From Branchiostoma floridae (Eukaryota; Chordata; Leptocardii; Amphioxiformes; Branchiostomatidae): a stretch of 64,000 nucleotides of DNA. The stretch is taken from NCBI RefSeq assembly GCF_000003815.2, contig NC_049981.1, positions 658,459 through 722,458 of the forward strand, read 5' to 3'. The translations under genes and the position numbers were made by a program. Of the stretch, positions 25,029 through 51,109 are shown in pieces. The notes under the pieces were generated by a model. It made no database searches. It was not told the DNA's origin and saw only the letters and a program-made list of their open reading frames with translations. Each line of letters begins with the position of its first letter. The stretch's first letter is position 1.

Positions 25029-25490
25029 ATGTTTCTCCTGTACATTTTGGTGTCGTTGTGTCTCCGACACCCACCGCCGACTGCAAGGAATGTCACTGGC
25101 TGGCCTGGCATACCATCAGCAATGGAAGGAAAGTTGCCAGGAAATGGTATGATCTTCTACGACCCGCCTGGAGATGATGGTTTTCCTCGACCAACGACCA
25201 CGATGGCGCCAATTTTGGTTAACCTGAACTTGGCACAGCTTTTGTTCGGAACAACCTTCAGCATACCGTGGCGATCACAGCTGAACTCGGGGTACAACAG
25301 TTTGGCCATGGATGGACTCTTGATAGAAGAACCACTAAAACGTTCACGAAGCCTCCTACTTCGGCTGCACACGAACAATGTGGTATCAATAACAGTTTCT
25401 ACTGATGTATCGTCTAACCTTCAAACAATTGTGGCCAAAGTGGTGGGGATGGATGAGGGAGACTTCTGGCTGAGCATCGGAGGACGTAAG
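25029..25490 (+). CDS. Orphan exon of a secreted or membrane protein, signal peptide at N terminus
   Basis: The frame is open for 154 codons from an ATG at 25029 to a consensus donor (AAG|GTATGT at 25490/25491), ending in phase 0. The first residues MFLLYILVSLCL form a short hydrophobic run resembling a signal peptide. A Pro/Gly/Thr-rich linker follows (about residues 14-60, including PRPTTTMAP). Next comes a globular-looking stretch with FSIPWRSQLNSG, LLLRLHTNNVVSITV and ending DFWLSIGGRK, whose alternation of strands and one helix could suit a SEA-like extracellular module. I do not recognise the family. No downstream exon was identified before 31 kb; it might be the 5' end of the membrane-protein gene at 44-46.5 kb, in which case the whole transposase-like gene would lie in its intron, but nothing proves this. 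Confidence 0.5.
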
Positions 25491-26486
25491 GTATGTCATC
25501 TTCATATATGTATAATTTGCGATAAAAGCCGAACAGCCTAAAATACGATTTCAAGTTTTGGCGCAATTGTATTTTTAACTGTTTGGGGAGGGGGGCGTTT
25601 GCCCAGAGCTGCAGGTTTAGCGTGTTGTTGGATCATACGCATGTCAGTGTACTTTTGACGAAGTATCATGTGAAGGTGTACGCTAACATTATGAGAACTC
25701 TCGTAAACCTTCCCAAAGCCATTCAATCCACCACGCACAAATTGTTTTGTCGCATGTTAGGTACTGCGGTTGGCGCCAAAAAGTTACCAACCGCCCCCGT
25801 CGACGTCACGGTTGCGTAAACTCACTGCGCTTTTTGTTTCATTCTGCAAATGAAGCTACCCTGTATTGATAAATGCATCACATTGTTACATAAATAGATA
25901 AATGTCGACAGGCCCATAGCTAAGGTATAGTTTTATTTAGGATTTCATGTGCGTTGGTGATGGGGAAGGGCTGTGCTGTATGTGAAACAACGGGTCACGA
26001 TTTCCCCTCAAATTAACCTTAATAAAGTTATACTATAGCCACCACACCGTTATTCTCCAAGCAGAGATTGGGTTGCAGAGATAGTAGTGGTAGAGGTCGG
26101 GATTTTTTAACGGAGGGGCGCGAGCCGGTAAAAATCGCGATCACTACTATCTCCACGAGAATAAAAACCGTGAGCTTATCACTATCTCCACGATGCTGGG
26201 AGTGTAGACCACCCGCCCAGTTCACAAGCGCAGGACGATCAATTTAAGAAGAGCGCTATTAGACTATTAGACAGATCATGATAGTGGCCTGGACGGCGAC
26301 AAGTCGAAAGGCCGGCTAAAAAGACAGACTACCCGACAAAGGAAATTAATAAACGCGTGGATGTCATCCATAAAATTTACTTGCTGTGGCCTACATGTAT
26401 GTTACGATACCGTAGCATCTGCTTGGACGGATGTAGAGTTACGGGCCGGCCGCGGGTGGTAGTTTGCAAACATTCCGCGCACCGCC

Positions 26487-26580
26487 AATGTCCAAGCAGA
26501 GGTTAGGCTCCGGTTGTGTTTTTAACGTTTTTAGTTTGTAAACCTTTCATCGGGCTTTCTATGTTGCACTGTTTTCTTGG
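26487..26580. mobile_element. Solo left arm of the CTCCAAGCAGAGG foldback MITE
   Basis: TCCAAGCAGAGGTTAGGCTC, a diverged T-rich arm and CATCGGGCTTTCTAT are present, with no right arm before the next copy at 26666. Confidence 0.7.
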
Positions 26581-26665
26581 CGTCTCGCGGCCTTTAATGC
26601 CAGCACACGGAACTCACAATGCCCCACAAACCTAATCACTTCAACACATTATAGCCGTCTAGCAC

Positions 26666-26876
26666 TACTCTCCAAGCAGAGGTTAGGCTCCGGCTGTGTT
26701 TTAACGTTTTTTTTAGTCGTTTTTACCGGGCTTTCTATTTTGTCATTTTTTTTCGCTGTGTCCGGTCTAATTAGGTTTAGACACAGCAAGATATAATACA
26801 AAATAGAAAGCCCGATAAAAACGACTAAAAAAAAACGTTAAAAAACAGCCTGAGCCTAACCTCTGCTTGGAGAGTA
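26666..26876. mobile_element. Foldback MITE, CTCCAAGCAGAGG family, complete copy with 9-bp target duplication
   Basis: The element runs from TACTCTCCAAGCAGAGG to CCTCTGCTTGGAGAGTA with near-perfect arms of about 95 bp. It is flanked by the perfect direct repeat GTCTAGCAC at 26657-26665 and 26877-26885. A 9-bp duplication suits Mutator-like elements; with no transposase present this assignment is inference. Confidence 0.92.
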
Positions 26877-27217
26877 GTCTAGCACCTACGTTCAAAGTGC
26901 GCGCCGTGCAACCAAGACACCCCCCCCACGCCCCAATTCTGTATCAAATTCTTCTGCCCAACACATCCCTTGAACCTATAATTTTTAACTTTCTCGCTGC
27001 GGAAATTTATATAAATGTTGTAGTATCGCAGATATCTAAAAAAGGAGTATATGCATAACAAACAGTACACCGTGATCATGATGTAAAAAAATCGTCACGA
27101 TTTCCATGTCCGCCAGAAAATTATTATTCTATTTTTCTTCTAAAGAATAATGAAACAGCGGATAAGAACAATGTGAACAGTCCTATTGTGCCACTTGAGA
27201 GGTCTTGAAGTTTCCAT

Positions 27218-27780
27218 TTGTCAGAACTCCATCGTACATGTCGTTGTTTTTTTCTTTTCCAAACCAAGGAGCCTGTCTTTTCCCTTGCCCCAACCAAGGA
27301 CATTATATATAAGTTGAATGTTGAAACAGGCAGATACCACAATGTAGCCCCCGACCAAAGGTTTTGTCCTTTCTGCCCAAATCATATTGAAGATGAATTT
27401 CATTTTATAATGGAATGTTCTAGATGCGCTAGTTTACGCAATGAATTATTCACGTTTCTCGAAGCAAGTACAACATATTTCAAAAGACGATGCTACAGAC
27501 AGATTTGCACATTTATTTAGATTTCAGAACTCCCATAATGCAAAAATAGGCAAATATATCAATGACTGCTTTGCTATTAGAAAGAATACTGAAGCTATTG
27601 ATTAGCCTACTTCATTATGATACTATACGAATGAATTATGCATATTAGCCCTTATTGTTATGTTAACTATGATGTTAAGCTTTATCCTATACCTCTATAT
27701 TTTGTACTTTATGTAATAGTTGTTGGCATACTTTGTACCATGTACAATTGTCGTGCAATAAAGTTCTGTATATCATATAT
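27218..27780 (+). mobile_element. 5'-truncated LINE, 3' end of ORF2 plus 3' UTR
   Basis: The frame from 27218 contains CPFCPNHIEDEFHFIMECSR, the C-terminal Cys/His motif downstream of reverse transcriptase, followed by LRNELFTFLEA. The frame ends at 27520, and a 3' UTR runs to GTGCAATAAAGTTCTGTATA at about 27752-27771. It is the best-preserved of three such fragments here (others at 18.3 and 22.9 kb). Confidence 0.8.
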
Positions 27781-28270
27781 AATGTCATGGCCCAAACAAA
27801 CAGCCTGTGTTGTTCAACCCTGCTCCCCAAATGAGGAGATTCCCCGGAAATCTGATATACATATTGGCTGCTCCGCTGCTCCAACCCCTCTAACCCCAAG
27901 TCACGGTGAGGCCTACTCGCTAATGTTTACGTTTTAGCGCGGATGCACACGGGATGGGTGGTCCAGGGTGGCTGTGAGACCAAAAAGATCGTCGCGGTAC
28001 GGCGGCGTGCTAATTTGCACCTCCCTTCGAATTGAAAACTTCTTGAAACAGCGGAGGCGCGTGCTTGGCGCGTGCTTTTTTTATTTTTACTACGTTTTTT
28101 TTCTTTTCTTTTTTCCCCCACATTTTTGATGCCGCTACGCTGGGTGAAATTACAGCGTAGCGGGCTTTTTACAGTGTTGTTTTTCCAACCCATATGCTGA
28201 AAAGGCCTGGCGAGAACACTGATGACAGCGGATATTAGCGGCTTGACACTGTTGTCTGCTCGGAGATCAA

Positions 28271-28749
28271 GGTCTCATTGATGTATTACTCCGCGAGTGG
28301 GTACCCTAAAAGAGATCCGAGCCAAAAATGAACGGCTGCACGGACGCATGTTTTTAGCGGTGAGAAATTCCCTTTTAGCCAGCGGAACTGATCTCAAAAG
28401 TTAGATTGGTGAAAGATTATTTGTAACTGAAGAAATTAGCAGGTAAAGTTTTGCAGCCGCGCGCTAGGTCGGAGGTACACAGTCGTGGGTTCTGAGTGGT
28501 GCGGTTGTACAATAGCAGCGAAAAAGTGCCTTTTGTGGGGATTGACTAATCGTAGTTTGTAATTGCTATAAAAAAAGTTCCTACGTATAGTTTACATTGG
28601 CAATTTTTTCCCACGATATAGGGTAAATGTGCTCGACATAGAATGAAAAATCTGCTGAAATTTCACGTAGCTTCATTATGAACGCGCCCATTTAAACCAC
28701 GAATTAATACATAGAAGTCTATGGGAAGAAGAAACTCATCAATGAGACC
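28271..28749. mobile_element. TTAA-type element, copy 1 (TCAA target)
   Basis: The ends are GGTCTCATTGATG and CATCAATGAGACC. It is flanked by TCAA on both sides (28267-28270 and 28750-28753), a variant of the TTAA duplication seen at the other two copies. The length is 479 bp and noncoding. Tetranucleotide TTAA targets are characteristic of piggyBac and Kolobok elements. Confidence 0.85.
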
Positions 28750-28860
28750 TCAAAGGCCATTGATTGCATCCGGCTCCTTCGCGACCGAGAGAAAGTCTAC
28801 GTTCATTGGGTGCATGTGGTAGAATATTGTTTGAAACGTGTCATTCGTAGAGCGGCTTAA

Positions 28861-29064
28861 GGTCTCATTGATGTATTACTTCGCGAGTGGGTACCCTAAA
28901 AGAGATCCGAGCCAAAAACTGAACGGCTGCATGGACGCATGTTTTTAGCGGTGAGAAATGAAAAATCTGCTGACATTTCATGTAGCTTCATTATAAAGGC
29001 GACCATGTAAAACACGAATTATAACATAGAAGTCTATGGGAAGAAGAAACTCATCAATGAGACC
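28861..29064. mobile_element. TTAA-type element, copy 2, internally deleted
   Basis: It has the same termini as copy 1, flanked by TTAA (28857-28860 and 29065-29068). Only the outer roughly 100 bp at each end remain, 204 bp in total; the deletion joins GCGGTGAGAAAT to GAAAAATCTGCTG. Confidence 0.88.
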
Positions 29065-29372
29065 TTAAATAAATATGAAAAATATTCATAAAAAATCAAC
29101 GATTTGCGCTGGAGCAAAAAATTGAAAAGGTTTTATAACCGGGCGCCAGCCCGCATTTTTTGGCTGCAGATTACTCCGTCTACCTATTTCCGTTAACATG
29201 GTAACGGACGAGTCTACATTTCCAAGGGGCGTTATTATTGTTATTTTTCTTGTATCGTACTCTACTAGATATATAAGCCATTTGAAAGAGGACTAAGGTT
29301 CTAAAGCTGTCTTTCTTGGTGTAAACTACTTCCAAGTTATTTTTTGCATTCTCCGCCTTGTCCCGAACGCCC

Positions 29373-29391
29373 CCCCCCCCCCCCCCCCCGC
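29373..29391. repeat. C homopolymer
   Basis: This is a run of about 19 C; its exact length is likely unreliable. Confidence 0.8.
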
Positions 29392-29943
29392 GCTAGGCGT
29401 CACACCTATGAAAAGGCCAATCAGAAAGGCTCAGTTTGGCTTGCCCGCCTCTGACATAAGGAACCTTGAAACGCAACTAACGTCAATTTCTAGTAATGAA
29501 GCTCTGTTTTGACTTGGTGAGCTATAGTACCTTCACCCGATCTGCCATATAACCGTTACTACTAGTATTTGTCGTAGAAGGATCCGTATGAATCTCGTCG
29601 TGCCTGTCGTGCTGAGATCCCTTTCACGACTATTCTCTGATATATATTCCAAATAAACAAAGACAAAATTCACAAAGAGAGCATTACTCAGTCAAACTCA
29701 TAGACAGACGGATCTAATGAGTCTTTCCGACACGTCAAAAGCGTCATTCTCGACGCCTTTGCACTTTGTCCTATAGATTGGCAACAAGGCCGCTAGGTGG
29801 CGCTTTTACGTCTAGAATGACCTCGCACTTAATTACCTCTCAGAGGCTAATTCATTAACGTACGACACCCAGACTTTCAGAGATGATTAAGAAAACGACA
29901 TTCTTTCCTCTGAGAGATTTTTTTATTAATACATTAAACTTAA

Positions 29944-30423
29944 GGTCTCATTGATGTATTACTCCGCGAGTGGGTACCCTAAAAGAGATCCGAGCCAAAA
30001 ACTGAACGGCTGCATGGACGCATGTTTTTAGCGGTGAGAAATTCGCTTTTGGCCAGCCGAACTGATATCAAAAGTTAGACTGGTGAAAGCTTGCTTGTAA
30101 CTGAAGAAATCAGCAGGTAAAGTTTGACAGCCGCGCGCTAGGTCGGAGGTACACAGTCCTGGGTTCTGAGTGGTGCGGTTGTACGCTAGCAAGGAAAAAG
30201 TGCCTTTTGCTGGGATTGACTAATTGTAGATTGTAATTGCTATAAACAACAAACCTATGGATTCTAGTCATTGGCAATTTTTTTCTATTATATAGAGTAA
30301 ATTTGCTCAACATAGAATGAAAAATCTGCTGACATTTCATGTAGCTTCATTATAAAGGCGACCATGTAAAACACGAATTATAACATAGAAGTCTATGGGA
30401 AGAAGAAACTCATCAATAAGACC
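29944..30423. mobile_element. TTAA-type element, copy 3, full length
   Basis: The ends GGTCTCATTGATG and CATCAATAAGACC (one mismatch) are flanked by TTAA at 29940-29943 and 30424-30427. The 480 bp align with copy 1 throughout. No transposase was seen. Confidence 0.88.
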
Positions 30424-30429
30424 TTAAAC

Positions 30430-31210
30430 TTTAAAGAGTGACCATGCCCATGCTGTTCAGTTCAGTAATGATAAAGAGAGGGGGGAAATGGACACAATTG
30501 TTTCAGACTGATGAGACTTTTAAGATAGACGACGAACCTTACCGGTGGTGTTGTGGTGTTGGTACCACCAGTACGTTACCTTAACCCGTCTGTTCTATCC
30601 TTTTTTGTTTGTGATGGTGACGCCGCTACCCTACCCCACATATCGTGTCTGCGCTATCTGCGAGTAGACAGGAAATGGAGTTCTCTTCGGAACTTGGGGA
30701 GAAAAGAATTACCATTTCCTGCTGTCGGATCACAGAAGCATTAGAGAACCTCCCCTTACTCACCCAAGATGTTACCTCCCCTCCCCTCTCCCTGGACGGT
30801 GGATCTCAAAGCAGCTTTTTTTCTCTAACTATTTCTTGGGGAGTAGAAACTATTTTGCTTAACAAGTCCCAAAGTCTTTCAAAGATGAACATACAAACTT
30901 AAAATCAGTTACGTGATCCTCTGAATTACACAGTTAATAAACAAAGCCTGTGCAAGAACGGAGAGTTGTGGCTATAGTACAATAAACTGTAACAGAGATG
31001 GCCTTTAGACATGAAAACTAGAATATCAGCTAAAATTGCTGGTTTTCATGCATTCATGCAAGGACATTGTTTCAATAAGTGTTCAAAATGACCCGCCCTG
31101 AGTAGTATACAGTGTCATAATTCATGGTTACAATTAGTTCCTATAACCACCGAATGAATGACCGAACGTGGTCAACAGACATAGAATACAAACGCTTTGT
31201 AATGCTTTAC
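30430..31210. other. Upstream region of the DUF7869-like gene
   Basis: No exon was recognised. TTTACAG at 31206-31212 just before the proposed ATG (31222) could be a splice acceptor, in which case a noncoding first exon lies somewhere in this region. Confidence 0.35.
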
Positions 31211-31221
31211 AGGTAACCAGC

Positions 31222-34200
31222 ATGGCAGGTGTGACATCTGAGAATGAGATTATCAATGTTCAGCTTAGACTGCGTGGAGGACAGCCCATGGAAGACGACC
31301 CAAGCAATGCTACCCAAACAGAAGCTGGAGAAGCACATACCAGCTCGTCCGCCAAGAGACAAGTTACATCTGACAGAGGTTTGTATACAACATACATGTA
31401 TGTAGATACAAAAACAAGACCATAGCATGTACATGTAGATTTACCATTCCAACAGACTTACTATACATTATGGCTCTATCAATCCAAGGAGCTTTTATCT
31501 ATCCCTATATATATATATCTATATCTATATATATCTATATATATCTATATATATCTATCTATCTCTATATATATATATATATATATATGTAGGAAGGTGT
31601 GTGTGTGTTAATACATATTATCATATAACCAGGTGCCGCGGACCAATCAGAAGGCCCAGTTCAACGTTGATTATGACGCAGTAACATAAAGATTCCGGCC
31701 AGGCCGGTGTGTTCGCTCCTTCTGATTGGTCAGAATGAATCGACACCGGCACCGTTGTCGATTTGCATCGACACCGGCACCAGTGTCGATGCAAATCTAT
31801 ACCGTGTCGATCCATTCTGACCAATTAGAATGATCAATATACACAAGAAAGTAGGGGATATGCAGGCATTGGCCAATCAAAAGGAGCGAAACATAAGCCA
31901 AAGCAGTGGGAATAAGTACGGACTGCAAGGGGGGAATGGCTCATTCTGTTAACATTGGTAATGAGTTTTGTTGTTTGGAAATTTTGGTTTTCAAAAAGGA
32001 ATCTGTAATCTCCTTACAAATGTATGTACCAAAGAACAAATGTGAATTTCAGAAATTCGACAGCGGAATTCACACGTATAGTACCAAGGGATGTATGCGT
32101 CACACAGGAGTTTGCAAGTTTGGGTAGGCTATATGATAATAATGTTAATGACCCGCCTGTTCCATGGTGTACATGGTGTCAGCCTGTCAGGCGTTAGAAA
32201 AGGACCAGGCGTTATGACACCATATACACCTCGGGGCGGGTCACTACCCCTTAAATATACCACGGCTACAAAAAAGGCAATTGCTATGATCAGTTGTTGT
32301 ACGCTAGAAATCCCTAAAGTAGACCTATGTGTATATCATTGAGTTTTTAATCTTTTCACAGATACCACTAATTTTTTTTTCGCAACATGCTATTTACAAA
32401 GGGTTGGTGGACAAGTCAGAAAAATCCCCAAAAGGCAAGTGCGACAGCATATTCTGTTGCACAAAAGCTTAATCTAACTTGTCCTGCTTTACAATGTGCA
32501 TTCTTGTTGCATTACTCACATGAATAAAACACATGCGATGTTCAGTCTCAGGTTATGATGAGTTATTTGTTTCCCTTTCTTCTAGATCCTTTGAAAAGGA
32601 TGAGAAGGGTAAAGGCCATGGACATGGACCACATCCGAATAAAGCTCATGGAAGGATGTAAATGCAAGCACAGTTGCCACATAGAAGTTGATGAGATTGC
32701 TGTCCTAGATTTTCGACAACGAGTCCATGTGTTGCCGGAGGGCCCTATACGACAAACAAGGCTCCTGGAACTCTACAGGACATGTAAAGTCCATGTGGAA
32801 GGACAAGGCGAGAAGTATCTGGTTAATGGAGCATTTGTTTGCATGTAAGTGGTTTGATTTAGTATGATCGGATTGGCAACTACAAAGTCTCACACTACAG
32901 TACACAGGTTTCCACATTAACTCACCTTTATCTGAAGGGTAACCTATACCAAATGTTTGTAAAAAGCGAACGTTCAGGGATATCATGTTGACAAATGGTT
33001 GTTTGAAATTCTGATATTAAAGCAAAAATCTAGTATATTTTCAAAATATCGAAATTTGAAACCACTGGTCTTGACCTGATACTGTAAATGCATTCAAGTT
33101 CACTGGGATTTAATTTGGCGGTAGTGGGAATAAGGACTTTTCGCGGTGGATTTAAGTTCGCGGTAACACCATAGACTGCAGTCTAATACCATAATATAAA
33201 AATGTTCGCAGTGGTTTTAAGTTCGCGATGAAGTGGTCAACCGTGAACATTAATCCACCGCGAACATTTCTGCATTTACAATATTCCTAGATGCCCAGTT
33301 TTAAAAACAAGTGATATTCCAAGCTAGGAGGCTTACCACTCAGACAAAAGGTGAACTGCCATGACAAGTTTTCAATGGCACCTGTCATAATTTGCTCCGC
33401 CACTTTACGTTTACTGGAAAAAAGCATAAAGCAATGGATTGGAATTCTATTCTAATGCAAGATGTAATATTAACTTCCAGGTACACCTGGTACGGCATTT
33501 GCCTTGGGATCTCCCGGTCCAGTCATTACCGCATAATGGGCGATCTGAACCTTGGTTACTATGCTGTTGAGAGGCAACCAGCACTTGAAGGAAACCTTGG
33601 AGCAAAAGGTAACATGTTCTGTAATGGTTGTAAATATGTGCACAGTCAAAATTGTCCTAAGCAACCACTGAAGGCCACCACTGAGCTTGATGTCTATCAC
33701 TTTTGTTTCTGAGAAGTTTGTTAAAGACCCAAGCAAAGATGTGTTTGCTGGTTGGTCAAGACAGTTGGTTGCTTGGGAAATGGTCTTAATTATGTAAAAA
33801 TGGATGGGACTGTTTCAATGTGTCCTCTGACAACAGGTGGTTGCCTGTATCTTTGCATAATCAATGCAAAACTGCCATAATTCTTTTAAGTAATAAATGA
33901 TTGGATTTTCAACATTGTGGCCTGTATAAGTTAGTTAAAGGTGTACATAACCAAGCATATACATAACCAAGCATAGACAATGCAGATGTGAAAGTAATTT
34001 GCATAATCACAATATTTCATGTAGATATGAGGCCTCTGAACTCAATGTTGGGTAGCATTTGTATGCATGCATGTTTTTGTGTAGAAGACCAGCATAATAG
34101 AGAATGCCTGAATGTATTGTATTGATACTTGGCATGTTGGTAGATCTTGACAACACCTGGAAATGATTAGATTTTTGGACCCATAATGGGCTTGTTACGG

Positions 34201-37200
34201 TACTGCAGTAGAACTTCTGGTCATGCTATGGTCTTGTTTTTGTAGTGTTAGATAGCTCTTGGGGCCGAGAGTACAGGTAAGTGGTGTAGGGTTGGCAGAT
34301 CGGCATGATTATTGGTCTGTTGATTTAATATAATGGTTTGTTAAGTGATCATCCTGCTAAAATGAAAGACAATAACATGAAAATAACATAAAAATCCTTT
34401 TGGAATTAGATGGAAGTCATATGCGTTTTCCTTTCTTTGTATTTTAGGAAGTATAGCCAAAGGCTTCCTGCAAGCATATATCACAACGATGGGAGACAGA
34501 AGCCCTGACAGCCGAAGGATTCTGTTACCTGTGGGGCTGACAAGGACTGAGATCTACTTGCAGTATAAGGACCAGCACAAAGTTGCAGCAGTCACCCTCT
34601 CGTATTTCTGTTCAATTTGGCAGAAACACTTCAAGCAGGTTTCTATCCCAAAGGTAAGAAGAAACGTGAAGGCTCAAATTTGTTTTGCGTAAAAACAAAA
34701 CGTCATAGGACTGCCTCAATTTGTATTTAAGTAACATGGCTCAAAATACCACCTGCATATGCAGGTAAAATCGCAGCTGTGCAGGTATTTCTGATGTATT
34801 GGGTTTTATACATAAATGTACTATGATGTAGATGTATACGGAATGTTACTAGCTGCATTGACTGTTACCACCTATAAAGTATAAAAGAAAAATAGCAATG
34901 GTTCCTAAACAGTTTTAGTATGATCCATAATTCCTAATATGAAAGTGGTGCAGGTAAAATTTGCCTGGTGCAGGTAATTTTCAATGTTACCTGCACCAGT
35001 GTAGGTATGCAGAAACAAGAATTTCGAGCCCTGAGTAATGATAATGAGGCTATAGTGCTTTATAGTTAGGTAAACTGAGGACACATTACCTACATTAACA
35101 AAGTTGTGCCTTGTACATGTAGCAGCTTTCTTGGATCAGGAAGACTATAGCTAGGGTTTACCCTGTTTTGAATAAATGATTTCTCCATGCAGGTGCAAGA
35201 TGAATTCTCAAGATAGACTTGTGACAGTGTTGCAATATACTTCATTTCTTCTAATACACTGTCCACTTCATTTGTGGTTTCAGGCCTGTCGCATGAAACA
35301 GTGCGATGTCTGTATGCTTGCCAAACAGACCATCGCATCAGAGGTTTCACACACTGCGAGGCAGAGTTTGATAAGCAAATGGAAGAGACATTTACAACGT
35401 CAACAGTAAGTTTTACACGTACAAAAAAGTGTAATGAAACTAACTTTGTTAATCATATTGCTTTTGAGATTTTACCTGTCATTCGTTTGTATGTGCATCA
35501 CTGCAAAGCCCACTCACATTCTCAACACTGGTGTTACATTTAAAATATATGACCTTTACTCAGGCCTATCTAAAAAGAAACACCTCAACAGTTACGTTTT
35601 ATTTCATGTTACATATTTTCCATGAGAAGAAACAAAACAAACGTCATATGTAAATCTTGCTCTGTAGGAATGAGAGAGAGACATATTATGAGAGGAGAGC
35701 AAGAGCAGAAAGCAGACGAAGGGACTACCTGAGTCTGATTTTAGATGGGATGGACCAGTCCAAATCAAATCTGCCCCACTTCAAGGGATGGACTGAACCA
35801 AAGGTAGGTTAATGCACTAGAAGTCTGTCAATGTTACACTGGGGTTATGTGGCATTGTTAATATATAGAATGTGCATGTCTTCTTAGCTATCTAGATGGA
35901 AACCTGTATGGTATGCATTTTTGACCCATGAAAACATTTCCAGAATTGTGTTAAATCTATTGTAGTTTCATGACTAACATGTGTTAAAATTACTAATTTT
36001 TCTTATATATCTATTAATTCAATTTATTCATTGTTTTCTTAGCTATGATAGCTAGTAGTTGGATTTAGCAGCACTATAAGATCATATCAACACTTGTCCA
36101 TTACAAAACTGCTACTAGTTTATTTAGATGTTTAACTTTTATCACTTTCGCGGCGGTGTACCCATAACTCTAGTAAAGCTGCCTACCTACAGGATGGCGG
36201 ACAGGGAGTAGCACCCCTGCCCTTGAGGAGCTAGTCTCTCACCCCTCCCCCACAAATAAACTTGAGTATGTTGCCCTAGATATGGGATTTGATATGATAG
36301 TGATGAAACCATCCCCGATTCAGCCAGGGAGACAGTGTGGAACAGGGCCGCTGGATTTCCAGCGAGGGAGACAGCGTAAAACAAGGCTGTTGGATTTCCA
36401 GCCAGGGAGGCAGTATTGAACAGGGCCGCTGAAAATCCAGCCAGGGAGGCAGTGTTGAACAGGGCCGCTGGAAATCCAGCCAGGGGGGCAGTGTTAAACA
36501 GGGTTGCTGGATTTCCAGCCAGGGAGGCAGTGTTAAACAGGGTTGCTGGATTTCCAGCCAGGGAGGCAGTGTTAAACAGGGCCGCTGGAAATCCAGCCAG
36601 GAGGCAGTATTGAACAGGGCCGCTAGATTTCCAGCCAGGGAGGCAGTGTTGAACAGGGCTGCTGGATTTCCAGCGAGGGTGGCAGTGTTGAACGGGGCTG
36701 CTGGATTTCCAGCCAGGGAGGCAGTGTTGAAAAGGGTCGCTGGATTTCCAGCGAGGGAGGAAGTTTTGAACAGTAGTTGGATTTAGCAGCACTATAAGAT
36801 TCATATCAACACTTATCCATTACAAAACTGCTACTAGTTTATTTAGATGTTTAACTTTTATCACTTAATTTCTTTTTTTTTACATTCAGTCTGCTGGAAA
36901 TGCAAGACTAGACACCCACATCACCGGTGCAATTGTACATGGAAGGAACACCTACGCACTACTGGACCTATCACAGTATCCACACGACTCCAACCTGGCC
37001 ATGAACTCGCTACTCCACATAATGGTCTGCGAAGCTGAGAATGGCCAGCTTCCACCCATCCTTAACATCCAAGTGGATAACTGTGGTCGAGAAAATAAGA
37101 ATCGCTTCTTCCTGGGACTCATGGGCTACCTGGTGAAGAAGAACTTTTTTGAAGAGGTAAGCCATGAATCATTGTCAAGGTGTGAGACTCAATGCTGTGT

Positions 37201-39866
37201 GTAAAAGTTACAAACCTCCAATTTTTTTGGATGTTGAGAAAATACATTGCTAAATATTTTTAATAAGTTTTAAAAAAGCAACACAGAACTTTCAAAACCC
37301 TGTCAATGTTACAGGACTGAATCAAAATTCAATTTTGAGAAATCTGATTACTACTTTTCATGACAATTAAACTGGTCTCACAAATTAGATACAAAGCTAC
37401 TTGTTATTACCTCCATGAAAAATGGAGGTATAGTTTTTGGTGTGTCTGTGTGTGCGTGTCCGCATATTTGTGGACATCATAACTTGAGAACCTCTCAATG
37501 GAGTACGATGATATTTGGTATGTGGGTAGGGGTTGGGAAGACGAAGGTCAAGGTCAATTTTGGCCCCCTTAGTGTGTGACCTTGGTACTGCAGCAGAACT
37601 TCAATTTTTTGTATCTTTTTATCTGGACATGCTATGGTCTTGATTTCTTGGTGGCAGATAGCTTTTGATGTAAGGAAGAAGTGGTGTATGTTTGGGCCCC
37701 CTAGCAGCTTGCCCTGGAACTGCAGGAGCATTTTTGTCAAAATCTTCCAAGAAGCATAACAGAACATAGGAATGATGAATTTCCATGATATTTGGTATGC
37801 AGGTACATGTGGCAGAGATGTACATAATGAAATCAAAATTATGCAAAGTTGGACTTCATTTGCATACTTAATGAGGAAAATTTATATTTACAGTGTTTTC
37901 CAATATATCGCTCAAATACATGTTACATATGTAGTTTGTGGCACGCGGAAGTTTAGCAGAAATTAATTATGCAAATAAGTCCCTAATTTGCATAATTAAT
38001 TTGAAAGTGTCCTAATTTTTCTTAGTACGTGTAGTAAATGATTGGTCTGTCAACACTGTGACCTGTCTACGTTAGTTAAAGGTGTACATAATCAAGCATG
38101 AATTATGCTAATTTGAAAGTAATTTGCATAATCAGAATATTTTCTTTCACAGATTACTGTGAATTTTCTTATGGTAGGCCACACGCATGAAGATGTCGAT
38201 GCAGTATTCAGCCAGTTCAGCCACCGGCTGGATCGAAAAGACGCAAAGACGCTGGATGAGCTGGAGACTGTGCTGAAGGACAGCTTCCATCCGGCGCCAA
38301 AGGTGGACAACTTTTTGGTGATGTGGGACATCAAAAACTGGCTGAAGCCTTATTTGGCCCCGATTGAAGGCCATTCCAAGCCTCATATGTACAGGTATGT
38401 GAACTGCCTACACTTCTGTCTGGCTTTATAAGACAGGAACATATAATGTGTACTCATTTCCTCGACTATCATTAAATATTGAATGAAGGGTTGGGCAGGG
38501 AGATGCACGTGGATATGTTGATTAGGATATTACTAAAATAATGACAAGTTTATTGCAAGTTCTCGCCCGAGGGCTAATTGGGACAAAATGACGGCAAACA
38601 ATGGTTAACAGCATTTTTAGTGAGCGGCTGCTCCAGTCTAAAAAATGATGCCAAACGTCAACTTCTTTAATGACATCATTTCCATGATGACAAACAAGTC
38701 CACAAAAAGATTACCTCTCTTTCAGGTTTACTAAAGATAGGAGCGAACGCGCCAACATGCAGTACAAGATGTGGTCAACCGACACTGTGTGGCGACCATC
38801 CGCAACGGACCCGGATCTCCAACTGTTCAAAGAAGTTGATGGCGAGCAGCAAATACCAACTGGACAGCCAGCCTTTGTGGAGCCACACTTCGAGGAAGAA
38901 GACCTTAAGAAGTTAAAGTCATCAATCGAGAAAATGAGGGACCATCTCAACTACCAGCAGTGGCAGTGGTGGCAGACATTTTTAGATAACCCAAAAGCCA
39001 TCCACCACACCTCCACCACACCTCCATCCTGGTTTCTCGACAACCTCCGTCCATTTCAACCTTTGCCACCTGTTCCACTAACATCAGATGAAGGGCAGAG
39101 GACAGCACTGCAGAGGCTGCTAAACAAGGAGCTCAACTGTCCTCCTGTGAGTCATCACATTACTGTTATATCTTTATTTATCCTCATATATTTATCTATA
39201 TATCTGTATGCACAATATTTCAAATACACTGTAGCACCCCAGTGAAGCAATCACCTCATATCACTATCCTCTACCTAAATAGCAGATGAACATGACATGA
39301 TGTTGATACTTTTTGTGAAGCAAAAATTGTTCAGAGAACCTTCTTTGCCAATAGGTCATTTAATTCTTTTTAAATCATAATTGCAAAGCAAATCCTCCTA
39401 TAATCATTTATTCATAGAAAAAGGCAAAGTTGCATCTTGGTTCTCTGTGATATGAACTTCAACGTAGCAATGCCACAGGGGTCCCATAGTTTGTCCTTAT
39501 AGTTTTTCAAATGTATCTTTTCAATAGGTATCTAACAAAGGAAAAAAGAGGCAGCAGAGTCAGCAGCCCTGCGTAGCACAGAAGAAGAGAAGAGGAGGCA
39601 ACAGTAAGCCAAAAAAGAATGACATGGCTGCATTTTTTGATGACAAGAAAAGAGTAAAAGTAGGAAAAATTGAATGGATCATTGAGGAAAAAGCAAAACT
39701 ATTAATGTACAGGGGAGCCCTAGGCAAAAAATATGTTCCATATAAGAACAGTGCAGGTAATCCAATGTGTATGTACATTAACAAAGACTCTATTGTCGCA
39801 CATTTTAAACTAACTGGGGATAAAATCCCACCCAACATTGTCGAGAAATTACAAGAGAAGATGTAA
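31222..39866 (+). CDS. Ten-exon DDE transposase-like protein, DUF7869 type (758 aa)
   Basis: Exons: 31222-31378, 32586-32844, 33481-33608, 34448-34653, 35284-35405, 35668-35803, 36890-37156, 38153-38394, 38726-39146, 39528-39866. Every junction is GT-AG and every phase matches; the joined frame is 2277 nt with one stop. In order the protein has an acidic N terminus, a cysteine cluster (GCKCKHSCH, exon 2), a helix-turn-helix-like stretch YLVNGAFVC then GICLGISRSSHYRIM, a second Cys pair (QCDVCMLAK, exon 5), then a catalytic-type core: LSLILDGMDQ (exon 6), NIQVDNCGRENKNRF (exon 7) and VGHTHEDVDAVFSQF (exon 8). The spaced acidic residues match a DDE/RNase H fold; the nearest family I know is DUF7869. 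The C terminus is basic (KGKKRQQ, KKRRGG) with a small closing domain. An intact, intron-rich frame suggests a recent element or a domesticated gene. No terminal inverted repeats were found around it. The start rests on the first in-frame ATG of exon 1; upstream noncoding exons are possible. Confidence 0.85.
31502..31590. repeat. TA / TATC microsatellite in intron 1
   Basis: ATATATATCTATATC-type repeats run for about 90 bp. Confidence 0.95.
31721..31829. repeat. Inverted repeat in intron 1
   Basis: TCTGATTGGTCAGAATGAAT followed by CGACAC (31721-31746) is inverted at 31804-31829. Between the arms, ATCGACACCGGCACC is itself repeated in tandem. It could be a small MITE or a foldback structure. 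Confidence 0.6.
33080..33283. mobile_element. MITE with TACTGTAAATG ends, copy 3, in intron 2
   Basis: The ends are TACTGTAAATGCATTCAAG and CTGCATTTACAATA. The internal TTCGCGGTGG modules match copy 1 at 12671-12881. Confidence 0.85.
33895..34060. repeat. Repeat shared by intron 3 and intron 7
   Basis: TTAGTTAAAGGTGTACATAA, then CAAGCAT, and GAAAGTAATTTGCATAATCA occur here and at 38040-38140. Downstream (34120-34320) there is a diverged match to 37500-37680 (CATGCTATGGTCTTG, GATAGCTTTTG). Parts of one longer repeat therefore occupy both introns. Confidence 0.7.
34735..35033. mobile_element. Degenerate element with GAATTTCGAGCCCTG end, intron 4
   Basis: The right end GAATTTCGAGCCCTG is a terminal sequence shared by many aquatic-animal MITEs. 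The left end CATGGCTCAAAATAC is a decayed inverse. The interior repeats CCTGCATATGCAGGT-like and GTGCAGGTAA modules. Confidence 0.5.
36054..36147. repeat. Left copy of a 94-bp direct duplication in intron 6
   Basis: The sequence from AGTAGTTGGATTTAGCAGC to TTAACTTTTATCACTT is repeated at 36772-36867 with very few differences. The two copies bracket a 624-bp insertion. Confidence 0.95.
36148..36771 (+). repeat. Insertion in intron 6 copied from the gene's own 3' flank
   Basis: The first part (36160-36310: GGCGGACAGGGAGT, CCCTGCCCTTGAGGAGCTAG, CTTGAGTATGTTGCCCTAGA) matches 40600-40740. The rest (about 36337-36771) is eleven units of the 39-bp minisatellite found at 40985-41535. Order and orientation are the same as downstream, with about 200 bp (40770-40980) left out. 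Confidence 0.9.
36772..36867. repeat. Right copy of the 94-bp direct duplication
   Basis: This is the partner of 36054-36147. It ends 22 bp before the acceptor of exon 7, so the duplication includes part of that acceptor's upstream sequence. Confidence 0.95.
37400..37860. repeat. Dispersed repeat beginning TTACCTCCATGAAAAATGGAGGT, intron 7
   Basis: It opens with a small hairpin (ACCTCCAT and ATGGAGGT) and continues with GTGTGTCTGTGTGTGCGTG and repeated GATATTTGGTATG motifs (37509 and 37789). A diverged, truncated match lies in intron 3 at 34120-34330. From memory, this opening is common in invertebrate genomes. Confidence 0.55.
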
Positions 39867-39882
39867 ATAACATTTAGTGCTA

Positions 39883-40700
39883 GAGTTATGGGTACTCACA
39901 ACCGCCCACCTACAGGTCGGCGGACAGGGAGTGGCGCCCCTGCCCTTGAGGAGCTAGTCCCGCAGTGTTCTCCCCCCCCCCCCACACGCAAAGAGAGGTA
40001 AAGTGTAGAGTTATGGGTACTCACAACCGCCCACCTACAGGTCGGCGGACAGGGAGTGGCGCCCCTCCCCTTGAGGAGCTAGTCCCGCAGTGTTCTCCCC
40101 CCCCCCCCCCCCTCCACACGTTTTTGGAAAAGGGGGCGCCCCCCCCTCCCCAATAAGACGTTTTTCCCTATTTTTTTCCCCCCCCCCCCCACCCAAAAAA
40201 GAGGTAAAATGGAGGTTTTTGGGGTTTTTCCCCCCCCCCCCTTTATTGTTGGGGGAGGGGGAGGGGGGCCCTCTCCCTTGGGGGAAAATGTCCCACTTTT
40301 TTTCTCCCCCCCCCCCCCCCCCCCCAAAAAGGGGGTAAAGGTGGGGGGTTTTGGGTCCTCCAACCCCCCCCCAAAAAGTTTGGGGAAAAGGGGGGGGCCC
40401 CCCTCCCTTGAGGGAGTTATTCCGAAATGTTTTCCCCCCCCCCCCCCCCCACGCAAAGAGGGGTAAAGTGTAGATTTTTGGGTTTTCACAACCCCCCACC
40501 TACAGTTGGGGGGACAGGGAGTGGGCCCCCTCCCCTTGGGGAGCTAGTCCCGAAGTTTTTTCCCCCCCCCCCCCCCCCTCACGAAAAAGAGAGGTAAAGT
40601 GTAGAGTTATGGGTACTCACGCCCACCTACAGGTCGGCGGACAGGGAGTGGCGCCCCTGCCCTTGAGGAGCTAGTCTCTCACCCATTCCCCAAAAATGAA
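39883..40700. repeat. Tandem repeat of about 120 bp, degrading into homopolymers
   Basis: About seven units start TAGAGTTATGGGTACTCAC and contain GGCGGACAGGGAGTGGCGCC and GAGGAGCTAGTC followed by a C-run. Units 1, 2 and the last are clean. Units in the middle (about 40120-40560) keep the same order of features but with C, G, T and A runs inflated and fine sequence lost, as in a badly resolved long-read consensus. Confidence 0.85.
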
Positions 40701-40913
40701 CTTGAGTATGTTGCCCTAGATGTGGGATTTGACATGATAGCCTTAACAAAAACTTGATGTGATGAAACCATATTTGTGCTTCTTATGGGCCACCTGGCCA
40801 GAATGTGGAAGAGTGCATTATTTCAACACCATTGTTACAGTATTTATTATCTAACATGTAAATGTGGTTATGTACTTGACCACATGTAAAGAGGTACATG
40901 CATTGCAAATTTG

Positions 40914-40919
40914 AATAAA
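40914..40919 (+). promoter_or_regulatory. Possible poly(A) signal downstream of the DUF7869-like gene
   Basis: AATAAA in TTTGAATAAAGTTCTG is the first clear signal I saw beyond the stop at 39866. A 3' UTR reaching it would cross the tandem repeat. Confidence 0.35.
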
Positions 40920-40984
40920 GTTCTGTGTAAAGCACAAGGCCAGAAGTATGACTTTCTTTTGTAGAGTTTACAGAAATTCCAGCC

Positions 40985-41555
40985 AGATTAACAGTGTTGA
41001 ACCAGGCCGCTGGAATTCTAGCAAAGGAGGCAGTGCTGAATATAACCGCTGGATTTCCAGCGAGGGAGGCAGTGTTGAACAGGGCCGCTGGAAATCCAGC
41101 GAGGGTGGCAGTGTTAAACAGGGCCGCTGGAAATCCAGCGAGGGTGGCAGTGTTGAACATGGCCGCTGGATTTCCAGCGAGGGAGGCAGTGTTGAACAGG
41201 GCCGCTGGATTTCCAGCCAGGGAGGCTGTGTTGAACAGGGCCGCTGGAAATCCAGCCAGGGAGGCAGTGTTGAACAGGGCTGCTGGATTTCCAGCCAGGG
41301 AGGCAGTGTTGAACAGGGTCGCTGGATTTCCAGCGAGGGAGGAGAGGGAGGAAGTTTTGAACAGGGCCGCTGGAAATCCAGCCAGGGAGGCAGTGATGAA
41401 CAGGGCCAGACTTCCAGCCAGGGAGGCAGTCTTGCTCTGGACCGCTGGAATTCCAGCCAGAGAAAACAGTCAAGTGGAAGCCGCTGGAAATCCATCCAAA
41501 CAAAAACCTAGGGTAAGGCGCTGGAATTCCAGCCAGGGAAGCAGTCTCAAGTAGT
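40985..41555. repeat. 39-bp minisatellite with palindromic core
   Basis: About fourteen units of GGAGGCAGTGTTGAACAGGG plus a 14-bp core. The core occurs as GCTGGAAATCCAGC, as its exact reverse complement GCTGGATTTCCAGC, and as the perfect palindrome GCTGGAATTCCAGC. Because 39 is divisible by three, all frames tend to stay open; the resulting ORFs on both strands are not genes. A second array of the same unit is in intron 6 at 36337-36771. Confidence 0.97.
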
Positions 41556-42315
41556 TTAAGGAGTACATGATATCATACTATGTACAAATAGTACCGAAAT
41601 CTTAAAAAAGTGTCAACTTGAGACAATAATACAGTCTCAAGTTGCATCTGAATCCGTTAAGAATAGTCAGTCTACCGAGGGGATATCTATGCACAGATTC
41701 CCCAAAGTTAAAAATGACAGAACTGCGGCTGACAAATTGAGAGTCTCAGCGAGCTAGAAAACAGTGTACAAAATTATGTATCAAGTTTGTTCAGAGGCAT
41801 GGTTCCTTCCGCGACATCTACGGCTTCGCACACTTCGAGCTCCGCACACTTCGAGCCCTCGTACTTCAACATGAACCTTGAGATTATATTGGGGAGAGCT
41901 GTGGGAGGACCAGAAGGATTATCGCAGGAAAAGTTCCAACTATTGACACCGCTGGTCTGCCGACTCCCAGTCACGGAACGCGCGCGGAGAAGGGTGAATT
42001 CGCCACTGTTTATCACAGCTGCAGGACGTTTATCTGTCACATACTAGTAGTAATTCACCCTGTAAATTTACCTTGTATTTCGCTTGTTCTGGTCATAACT
42101 GTGTTGCCATTATTGTGAAGTACTTGTACGCTTTGACTCCGACACAAAACAGCACAAATGATTCTTGGATTTTACATCTTTGTCGGCGTCCGGATAGATT
42201 TCATAACAAAGTGAACCGCTTATACCGAACTCGTAACAACAATGATGCCGACGCTGTCCCAAGATTTTCAAGCACGAAAATTTGCTGACCGTATTCAAAA
42301 TACGTTGGAAAAATA

Positions 42316-43010
42316 GTCACTAGATTTTGTCATGAGTATTGTAGTTTTTGGTCTCCGTAAAACCAAGTTACGAGCGAATCTGGGATTTTTCGTCGTCGAC
42401 AACAACAACTCTAAGAAAAATGGCCCCAAAAAAGATGGCGGCCGTGCGCTAAAAACCTCAGAGACTTTTCGAATTTTCTTTCACGGAAACACCAGTCTGT
42501 ATGTTTTTCCTCGAATCACTAGGAGCTTACGAAATCTGTGTGTTGTTTAGTGTCTTAGCGGTGGACATGTTGTTGATAGATGAGTTAAAATAGTTTGGTT
42601 TTGTATAAAAACTTCTAGCGTAACCTGAGCATGTAAACAAAGGAAAATATATCGAGGTTGCGGGACCACAAGCATGTACGTACTTGTTACTATGTCATCG
42701 ATAACTCGTTTTTTTTGCTCGTGTAGCTACAAACTTGGCACTTTTGTCGCTAGATTTTGTCATGAATATTGTAGCATTTATATGTAGTACTGATATGGTC
42801 TCCGTAAAACCTAGTTACGAGTGAATCTTGGATTTTTCGTCGTCAACAACAAAGAAAAATTCCTCACAAAAAAATGGCGGCCCCGTGCCATGCGCTATTA
42901 TTTAACCACACTTTTCGAATTTTCTATCACGGAAACACCAGTCTGTGTGTTTTCCTCGAATCACTGGGAGCTTACAAAATCTGTCTGTTGTGCAGACAAA
43001 TATGAGACAG
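42316..43010. repeat. Tandem duplication with a GATGGCGGC motif
   Basis: The block with CTAGATTTTGTCATGA, TGGTCTCCGTAAAACC, GGATTTTTCGTCGTC, ATGGCGGCC and CACGGAAACACCAGTCTG occurs at 42316-42545 and again at 42749-42985, about 430 bp apart. Neither copy has an extended coding frame consistent between copies. Confidence 0.8.
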
Positions 43011-43903
43011 AAAGAACAGTCACTCTCAAAATGTTTCACGGACTCGTCACAATCTGGAGGCGTTTAGCTAGCTATCGGCCGTGCTCACGACTAGAAATGG
43101 TCAGTCTACGACGTACTATCTATCCGATAAAAGCTTACAGGTTTGTAAACAAACACATACTTTGAGTGGGAATGTATTTTGAATCGCATTTCTTGTGGCA
43201 ATGAGGTTGCTTCTCATTTTAAATCCTGGCGAACTGTACGTAGTTAGTTGCTCAGCTGTTGTATATTTGTACGCGACCGAAGCTTTAGTCCCGGTTTCGC
43301 TAGCAGACACAAGCTGAGACCGCAAAGAGGCACAAATTTCTGCGCTTCCGCTAGAAAACATCTTCAAATTAATGTACAGCATGGCCTCCTTACTGAGGAT
43401 AATGTAAGCTAATGCTATCATTTGTGTATAGAAGAAGCGATGACTGTTTGTCCCCGCTTATTCCACACGCTACAATAATGAACTTTCTCCCCGCTTGCGT
43501 TACGCACGCTTGGTACGTGCATCAACTTCAAGTGCCTCTAAGATATATTTCAGTGGCGTGAATACGAACGAAATTCTCTTCAAGTGAAGTGAAGTATGTG
43601 TTCTTTAGTCGTGCCGAGTTTCGTCAATGAATTATGTTTCCTTTATAAGATACGGGTCTATCAAATGTATATTATTCCCCTAGTCAACCATACCAGCTAG
43701 TAGGGACTAACTAAAATGACGTCACGGCATGTTCCTAATTAGTTCCAGCAAAGAGCTCAAAGTACACATTTTTATGTCGCTGTTTGAGGGACTTCCGGAC
43801 GGACAATTGATTTGAAACTTGCATTGACTTTTTCAGAAAAGATCAAATTTTTACATTATTGGTAGAAAATGCTACAGACGATTTCATTTCAGTTACACTT
43901 GAA

Positions 43904-44003
43904 NNNNNNNNNNNNNNNNNNNNNNNNNNNNNNNNNNNNNNNNNNNNNNNNNNNNNNNNNNNNNNNNNNNNNNNNNNNNNNNNNNNNNNNNNNNNNNNNN
44001 NNN
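43904..44003. other. Assembly gap, 100 N
   Basis: This is a default-length gap upstream of the membrane-protein exons; 5' exons may be hidden here. Confidence 0.99.
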
Positions 44004-44121
44004 GGGCTCCATCAGCTTATCTGTAATATTTCTGGTAAGAATGAAGCATGCCAAAATCGTTAAGTTACGAATGATCTACAATGGAGAATAAACTAATATG
44101 CTGTTTTTATTCCGACGCCAG

Positions 44122-46531
44122 CCCATCAACTCACCGTCTGCCGACAAGGCCAACATCTTCACCTGGAACTACTTCAAGTTTGTGGAGGAACATCCCTACT
44201 TGTGGGTGTTCGACACCACACAGTGTTTCCCTGAGTCCAACAAAGTCAACATCATGTTCACTGTACCAGGTAATGACATATACAATTTGGAGTATAGAGA
44301 AGGATGGAGGAAGAGAGTCATGTCCATCCGTGCAACCAGCACGCCCGGATGATGATGATGATGACCGCTTGCAAATATCACAGTTATAATGCTACCTGCC
44401 ATAATTTACGAAGAAATTCATTTGACGATTTGCTTACTAAATACATCAATAATGTTTGTTACAAAATGTTGAATCCTTGACAATTTAGGTCATTACATTT
44501 TAGTGGTTTGATAAGTCCTTGCCACAGCAAATGGTGCTCTGGTGACACCCGTCTCTCTTCCTGCGTCCCTTCGTTACACAGATTTGTGCAATGACTCTAC
44601 ACAGCGAGGGTCTACTTTGCTGGTTGTGGTCTGTGGAGTGTTAGCAAGCAAGAAAGTCAAGAGCACCTGATAGCAAACCTTTACATTTCGGAATAAGGTT
44701 TTGTTACATATATATGTTTCAAAAGACTATCTGAACATGTTAATGTTTAGTGTAGATCTGCATTGTGTCGAGAAAGTCATGGTAACTCAAAGTTTCACTC
44801 TTTGTTTCTCCACAGCCGACTACAAGGCGGCGTTCCAGCTGAGTGAGACTCTGGCCCGTGACGTGTTCCTGTACGAGCTGGCTCGGGTCATGACAGTCTC
44901 TCCTCTCCGCATCCAGAACCTAGGGGTAAGTTTTTAAATTTCTTTTGCTTATAACGAAAAAATAAATAAAATTACATCAATCGGAGATGACATACTTCTC
45001 CAGGTTCTCCTCTTTTACTTAAGTTATAAACATACACAGGGGGAGAGAGGGGGCGGGAGAGATAGAAAGAGATGAACAGATGTACACATAGAGACGCGAC
45101 AAAACATGACTTCACTAACAGTAAGCTGAAGAAATAACAAGAAATTGGCCAAAGAAAGAAAAAAAAACTCGTTAATAGTAAAACTGACACCTGCTCTACC
45201 TGTTGGTTTCCACGCGGTATGGACGTCAGAGATGTCGACAGTTAGTTAGGTCAAAGGTCCAAGAAGTCTCTAGAATTAAACATGTGTGTCTTCAAGTGCG
45301 TGCTATATGCATGTACATTGCCTTATAATAGCCAACGGTAAAGTAAGTTAGACTGAGTCATTGAGAAAAATTCTGACTCTGTGAAAATATTGTTATCAGA
45401 TCTTCAATATCTCTTGTTTATTCTTGAACCCTTTCATATCGTCCCGTCCGCAGTTCACTTATACCAGTACAAGTGACGTCACCGTCAAGTTTACGTTGCT
45501 GGGCGTTCCCCCCGTCACTGGTAACGTCGCCGTCGTCAAGCCGCAGACGTCATTGGACGTCGCCAGGACTCTGCTGAAGAACGCCATCGACACCAACAGT
45601 TTCCAGGTCACCATTCAGCTGCAAAATGTGGTACGTCATCCATTTCTAACCAATGGTTGTGCTTGAAGATTACCTGGTTGGTTACTGATGACGATACACT
45701 GTCATCGATATTCACATCATTCTTTTGAGCAATGGACGCTCTTTGATGGTAACGTAATGCGGCTGCGGGGTCTTTGATCGATCGATATAGGGTCCTTGTA
45801 TTTAGAGGATTACAAAATCGTTGATACCGGATATTGAATGTCGCCACTTCCGTCTCCCAGCTGACCGTGGTTGTTCCCGCCTCCCCCGGCACCATCGTGG
45901 AAAACGCCATCTTTGATAACCAGTCATCCGAACTGATAGGATTCTCCGGCGGTAAGGATGTTCTTTTTTTAAATTTTCAATTAGAATTATAATACATACA
46001 CTAACTAACAAAAATGCTTCACTTTAGCTTTTGTGCTTAGATGAAACGTCAGGCAGTTCTCAACATTCAGTTCAGTTACTTTAACAATGAATGGCTTGAA
46101 CCATGTATCTAAGTCCTAAAACGACATACCATATTAATCAAAACAATATTTGCTGTGTACAATTTGTCATATGCTGAAGCCATGAGATTTGCCATAGCAC
46201 TGTTCAAGTTAGGGTAGATCCAAAAAGTCTTGTCCAAGAAATCACAGTTTGAGCTAAATGGGGTGTCGCTCTGACGAAAGCAGCAGTACAGTGACCAAAA
46301 AAAATATTTTTGTCCTTTATAGGGGCCATGGCTGGTGTGGCCCTAGGCCTGCTGATCGTGACCATTGCCCTGGGACTGGGCCTGATGTTCCTGCTGCAGC
46401 GCGGGTTCGGTGGGGGGTCCAAGGCTCCTGCAGTGGCGCGCAGTGGGGGAGGCAACTCCGCACCGACCGAGGAGAAGGTCCCGGGAGGCCTGGATAATAT
46501 CGACAATCCAAACTACAGCAGCACTGCATAA
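44122..46531 (+). CDS. C-terminal half of a type I membrane protein with NPxY tail
   Basis: Five exons with matching phases: 44122-44269, 44816-44925, 45454-45630, 45861-45951, 46323-46531 (stop). They give 244 residues. Extracellular part: PYLWVFDTTQCFPESNKVNI, then a helix-strand module (FLYELARVMTVSPLRIQNLG, then SDVTVKFTLLG) of the ferredoxin/SEA-like type often found just outside membranes, then a second similar stretch (VARTLLKNAIDT, FQVTIQLQNV). One transmembrane helix of about 23 residues (GVALGLLIVTIALGLGLMFL) is followed by a cytoplasmic tail of about 45 residues, Gly/Ser/Pro-rich and ending LDNIDNPNYSSTA. NPNY fits the NPxY motif read by PTB domains and clathrin adaptors. The arrangement recalls the juxtamembrane region of fibrocystin-like proteins, but I cannot assign the family. 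The 5' end is missing; a possible preceding exon end lies at 44004-44034, against the gap. Confidence 0.85.
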
Positions 46532-51099: not shown

Positions 51100-51109
51100 C
51101 TGCAAAATA

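Follow-up and report, generated by a model that had tools for sequence, protein, structure and literature searches.

A gene of ten exons at positions 31222–39866 of a 64,000-nucleotide stretch of the Branchiostoma floridae genome (hereafter the window; C3:658459–722458) encodes a 758-aa protein with a DUF7869 domain. We read it as an immobile, selectively maintained and single complete DUF7869 gene of transposase descent, which is in effect domesticated; we put the probability of this reading, favoured from one genome, at roughly 0.55. DUF7869 (PF25273) is a eukaryotic family for which no function is known, and no publication naming it was found in the literature searched. A complete, apparently constrained copy that retains its acidic set offers a concrete protein with which to probe the function of the family.

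Gene structure

The coding sequence comprises ten exons on the forward strand of the window. Exon 1 (31222–31378) starts with the ATG at 31222 and encodes residues 1–52, exon 2 (32586–32844) carries a first cysteine cluster (C77/C79/C83), and exons 3 (33481–33608) and 4 (34448–34653) precede exon 5 (35284–35405), which holds a second cluster (C252/C257/C260). The first acidic motif, LDGMDQ (D317), lies in exon 6 (35668–35803). Exon 7 (36890–37156) encodes the first half of DUF7869 and the second acidic motif, QVDN (D399), and exon 8 (38153–38394) encodes the second half together with the third motif, GHTHEDVD (E438, D439, and D441). Exon 9 (38726–39146) is followed by exon 10 (39528–39866), which contains a lysine/arginine-rich stretch and the stop codon.

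A preliminary description of this DNA had proposed ten exons with consistent phases and a 758-residue frame with two cysteine clusters and a D...D...(E/D) motif set. All of these were recovered when we joined the exons. The nine introns are GT–AG without exception, their phases agree, and the spliced coding sequence is one open frame of 758 aa plus a stop. Stops number 37 and 43 in the two alternative frames of the joined sequence and average 41 (minimum 21) in 1000 shuffles of it, so the 758-codon frame is not a product of chance. The GC content is 0.47 in the coding sequence vs 0.38 in the introns. Upstream of the ATG, the bases up to 31212 form a splice acceptor (TTTACAG), which leaves nine bases between the two and makes a non-coding first exon possible. 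The first AATAAA 3′ of the stop codon is at 40914, within 1.3 kb downstream.

The DUF7869 domain and the acidic motifs

A Pfam profile search matched PF25273 to residues 338–525 with 251.2 bits (E = 7.2e-75; the curated cut-off is 26 bits). This confirmed the family name given in the preliminary description. The match covers positions 4–192 of the 192-position profile and spans the exon 7/8 junction. DUF7869 is the one Pfam family above cut-off in the protein; outside it, neither the first 337 nor the final 233 residues have a Pfam match that reaches the cut-off of its family.

The three acidic motifs are LDGMDQ at residue 316, QVDNCG at 397, and GHTHEDVDAVF at 434. The spacing is 81 residues from D317 to D399 and 38, 39, or 41 residues from D399 to E438, D439, or D441. 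Fourteen lancelet loci, pseudogenes among them, could be read across the third motif; all of them keep D441, vs 12 of 14 for E438 and likewise for D439. On this count D441 is most likely the third catalytic acid and is the best candidate for it. At two further lancelet loci (L065 and L066) the exon stops short of D441. The idea that copies on contigs C4 and C16 are without GHTHED was rejected; in both, the motif lies upstream on an exon of its own (L065, L066). The GHTHED exon of a copy on contig C8 was not found in the sequence examined, and we claim no loss there.

To look beyond the lancelet, we scanned a bacterial and archaeal collection with the pattern GHTHED[VI]D, which returned 22 loci. 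Two of these, L019 and L022, are real relatives by tblastn; the remaining 20 gave no match better than E = 0.17. L019 is 28.6% identical over 262 positions (E = 8e-16) and passes the Pfam cut-off for DUF7869 (6.8e-23), and L022 matches at E = 3e-15; over the aligned pieces the two are 24–38% identical to the lancelet protein. Both keep D317, D399, and GHTHED[VI]D. In L019 D320 is replaced by A, which singles out D317 as the first acid. The contigs of L019 and L022 are short and were binned as Bacteroidetes. They are probably eukaryotic contamination, since the L022 match is split over frames as if by an intron, and since relatives were not found in phages, in viral contigs (including 20 loci checked), in plasmids (queried with a piece of L019 only), or in 14 control genomes. 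Positions 2–781 of L019 (reverse strand) hold an open frame with a zinc-knuckle-like stretch that, by eye, resembles retrotransposon gag.

A search by sequence for relatives of solved structure (PDB) returned none that is credible, the single match being to a receptor–lysozyme chimera (E = 0.69). An AlphaFold model of part of the L019 frame, built from a seven-row alignment, has low confidence (mean pLDDT 53, pTM 0.47). The model places a strand (131–136) just before the first D, then a helix (189–205), a strand (211–217) with the second D at its end, a helix (225–237), a strand (242–248), and a helix that holds the third motif (254–266). Two expected strands are unmodelled in the low-confidence stretch 138–187. 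At low confidence, this order of elements would be compatible with an RNase H core. The transposase-like character assigned to the gene in the preliminary description is plausible, given the acids kept in very distant relatives and the compatible order of elements in this poor model.

DUF7869 copies in the lancelet genome

DUF7869 is a multi-copy family in this genome. A profile search of the 513-Mb assembly (431 contigs), with all 117 candidates scored, gave 70 exon-level matches on 11 contigs, which we group into about 37 places. Two of the matches belong to the ten-exon gene, and stops are present in 18 of the 70 rows. Contig C6 (28 Mb) holds 29 of the 70, mainly at 19.5–28.0 Mb. Judged from match boundaries, most copies share an exon boundary at about profile position 96; a further boundary near position 53, found in many, is absent from the ten-exon gene.

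Copies of the whole protein are another matter. A full-protein census (40 matches, with 59 of 87 candidates scored) found all ten exons only at the 31222–39866 locus. Exons 1, 2, 3, 5, and 6 had no match elsewhere in this census at E ≤ 0.001, and exon 4 had matches in other subfamilies only (e.g., 35% on C16); other subfamilies are 24–51% identical. When tblastn was confined to the loci examined individually, other-subfamily copies matched portions of exons 3 to 6 with ∼25–43% identity. For example, exon 3 is covered at 25% by a distant copy on C8 (a smaller search), and exon 6 by copies at ∼33–43%. Copy number had been put forward in the preliminary description as a way to tell a domesticated gene from a transposon, and the answer has two sides: with 59 of 87 candidates scored, a single complete copy was found, as expected of a domesticated gene, but the DUF7869 family itself is multi-copy on 11 contigs. 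No set of full-length copies sharing their ends turned up under the same scoring.

The closest relatives are pieces of the same subfamily at seven places, six of them on C6 (protein census, 59 of 87 candidates scored), with 67–89% amino-acid identity in the best frame. Exon 9 fragments lie on C6 at 21.65, 26.27, 27.00, and 27.49 Mb, the last beside an exon 10 fragment; a partial exon 10 fragment, seen in the DNA search as well as in the census, lies on contig C234. The census adds an exon 8 piece at C6 20.04 Mb (67%) and an exon 7 piece of 30 residues at C6 27.30 Mb (80%), and the 5′ extent of all the fragments is that given by the census alone. We judged breakage by frames, as stops in the match rows may be intron ends, such as occur in the gene's own rows. 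Four of the seven places (C6 21.65, 27.00, and 27.49 Mb, and C234) are split over at least two frames; in the other three (exon 9 at C6 26.27 Mb and the two short pieces) no break was seen.

At the DNA level, the four long exon 9 relatives on C6 are 86–89% identical to the gene, and a query of 38130–39980 found the fragments, introns included, to be ∼87–91% identical. The C6 fragments carry both intron 8 and intron 9, from which it follows, on the alignments, that these introns predate the fragments. Two same-subfamily fragments start at window position 38350, inside exon 8, which points to the copying of an already truncated piece within C6. A second shared breakpoint of two C6 fragments, at 38654, was dropped: it adjoins a dispersed repeat in intron 8 (∼38520–38642, with many matches in the DNA search) and may simply mark where that repeat ends. 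Of the four C6 copies of exon 9, two were read, one of them in part. Relative to the intact gene, the two have a 2-base deletion in common, and each has private indels.

Ends, repeats, and genomic setting

The preliminary description had reported no terminal inverted repeats, and we likewise found none that are convincing: among the 25 longest of 167 inverted pairs in positions 26000–46000, pairs around the gene are weak or at chance level. A T-rich 29-base pair (28078/45155, 76% complementary) encloses the whole gene, and a 40-base pair (31089/32204, 80%) encloses exon 1 only. An ungapped scan of 28000–31221 against 39866–43900 gave one 15-of-16 match (29556/42053). We treat these pairs as chance matches or as parts of other repeats. 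Defined transposon ends were likewise seen for none of the DUF7869 copies examined, within the stretches examined.

Other repeats do occupy the introns, as had been claimed, including introns 2, 6, 7, and 8. Most of intron 7 is a dispersed high-copy repeat (37405–38132, forward strand; 6751 first-look candidates in the genome) whose match stops ∼20 bases before the start of exon 8. Intron 6 contains a minisatellite array (36318–36773, forward strand) with a unit of ∼39 bases, measured from match offsets in a self-comparison of the window. It is related to a downstream array at 40973–41460, and each array has copies of one common flanking repeat nearby. A further repeat with many copies elsewhere (39876–40084, forward strand) starts 10 bases 3′ of the stop codon, and its start is also present in the C234 fragment.

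Two other DUF7869 loci bear on how the family spreads. C4:28.705–28.722 Mb and C16:3.557–3.577 Mb share no less than 16.7 kb of sequence, including a DUF7869 gene (L073–L075, L093, and L076–L078). This block is 97.5–99.5% alike in its main pieces, and the homology passes the left edge of the examined stretch. From this likeness we infer that DUF7869 DNA has been copied between chromosomes recently. An 889-base inverted pair at C4 28.7 Mb was considered as a set of DUF7869 terminal inverted repeats and rejected as two copies of an unrelated repeat, because the unit has its own ends, occurs genome-wide, and is passed by the C4/C16 homology. This ∼890-base unit (at C4:28707412 and many other places) has short inverted ends by eye. 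The 89 bases at its end are 99–100% identical across the genome (40 scored of 856 candidates), and the repeat looks recently active.

The ten-exon gene seems to lie within another gene on the same strand. Six phase-matched exons (25029–25490, 44122–44269, 44816–44925, 45454–45630, 45861–45951, and 46323–46531) join into a 398-residue protein, a putative membrane protein that, by eye, starts like a signal peptide and has a membrane-spanning stretch towards the C terminus; it has no Pfam match. The ten-exon gene would occupy the 18.6-kb first intron of this gene, the exon at 25029–25490 being linked to the rest by phase alone. Elsewhere in the window, an open frame at 50710–51129 (reverse strand) resembles the EF-hand profile weakly (E = 0.004) and falls short of the curated cut-off.

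Selection and age of the locus

Exon 9 was compared with two broken copies. Against L094 (130 codons, 30 changes), dS is 0.146 and dN 0.062, giving a dN/dS of 0.42 (P = 0.04); against L095 (110 codons, 26 changes), dS is 0.181 and dN 0.056, giving 0.31 (P = 0.01). With 98% identity between L094 and L095, the two comparisons come close to being a single test. An earlier estimate from the first 77 codons of the exon was 0.22. Any selection reflected here may predate the split from the fragments. Strong constraint on exon 9 is not indicated: the fragments with their introns are ∼90% identical vs 86–89% for exon 9.

The repeat in intron 7 gives a measure of age. Among 40 scored of the 6751 first-look candidates, its best copy is 95% identical and most are 93%, a divergence of 5–7% from the nearest scored copies. 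Neutral change of 5% over the frame would be expected to leave ∼5 stops, with P(no stop) = 0.007 before frameshifts; with 2–3% change instead, P(no stop) would be 0.13–0.05. The indel rate used in this calculation is an assumed value. Given the divergence of the intron repeat, chance survival of the open frame appears unlikely.

Probable origin and possible function

We propose that the gene arose from a transposase of the DDE/D type belonging to the DUF7869 family. Its DUF7869 core would be RNase H-like and would hold two metal ions by D317, D399, and the third acid, likely D441. DNA binding would fall to the C77/C79/C83 and C252/C257/C260 clusters, and nuclear import to the basic stretch of exon 10. 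As the presumed catalytic residues are kept, the likeliest present role would be that of a protein that binds DNA and retains the ability to cut or join it, possibly in a metal-dependent manner. A fuller picture, in which a domesticated gene with all its acids and its DNA-binding clusters might encode an active host enzyme like RAG1 or PGBD5, which cuts or joins DNA, from within the intron of a membrane-protein gene, is less likely than not.

The preliminary description had named two alternatives for an intact frame with nine introns, a young intron-bearing transposon and a domesticated host gene. With one complete copy found (59 of 87 candidates scored), no convincing inverted repeats, and fragmentary relatives of its own subfamily, the young transposon is disfavoured and the domesticated gene favoured. 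The main rival reading, which we consider less likely, is that the locus is the lone survivor of an immobilised, intron-bearing DUF7869 transposon, intact by recency or luck and without host function. The dispersed multi-copy family would fit such a history (70 exon-level matches spread over 11 contigs, with stops in 18 of them), as would the fragmentary state of the close relatives in the protein census and the apparent nesting of the gene in an intron of another same-strand gene, where an insertion would place it. However, no other complete copy was found (59 of 87 candidates scored), no terminal inverted repeats are convincing (the 25 longest of 167 pairs), the intron 7 repeat has diverged by ∼5–7% from its nearest copies, so that the locus is not very young, and the dN/dS of exon 9 is below 1.

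The family could also be an ordinary animal gene family that merely resembles a transposase and spread by segmental duplication, never having been mobile in lancelets. That most copies have an exon boundary close to profile position 96 would be in keeping with this, the C4/C16 block of at least 16.7 kb looks like a segmental duplication, and transposon ends were found for none of the copies examined. Nevertheless, L019 and L022, relatives with the acidic motifs, come from very distant contigs of apparently eukaryotic origin, and the acid set fits DDE/D enzymes, which makes this explanation improbable. Very improbable indeed is a mis-joined gene model whose exons are not spliced together, in view of nine phase-consistent introns, 758 open codons against a mean of 41 stops in shuffles, and a DUF7869 match that runs through the exon 7/8 junction. 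We favour the reading as a domesticated DUF7869 gene.

Comparison with known systems

Some DDE/D transposases and integrases have a short spacing between the second and third acids, and the set of acids seen here fits DDE/D enzymes. The likeness of the lancelet protein to them consists of the three acidic motifs, with D399 followed by E438 at 38 residues or D441 at 41, and of the L019 model, in which the second acid would fall at the end of a strand and the third in a helix. The protein differs from them in having no match of solved structure other than the one at E = 0.69. DUF7869 itself, whose profile the protein covers from position 4 to position 192, is a family without assigned function.

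There may also be a resemblance to IS3EU, a eukaryotic transposon group with an IS3-like catalytic domain. IS3EU transposons are reported to have 6-bp target duplications and the ends TAYGG..CCRTA (PMC12730594). TAYGG occurs four times upstream of the ten-exon gene and CCRTA five times downstream of it, in no case within a paired inverted repeat. RAG1 and PGBD5 are transposases put to work in chordates, and the present gene raises two questions: whether DUF7869 is a transposase, and whether it is a chordate transposase put to work beside these two. PGBD5 differs in belonging to the piggyBac family rather than to DUF7869, and in that its orthology is published. PGBD5 is reported to be an intron-containing domesticated transposase found in cephalochordates (PMC3902484), and the ten-exon gene would be like it in being an intron-containing, transposase-derived gene of a cephalochordate.
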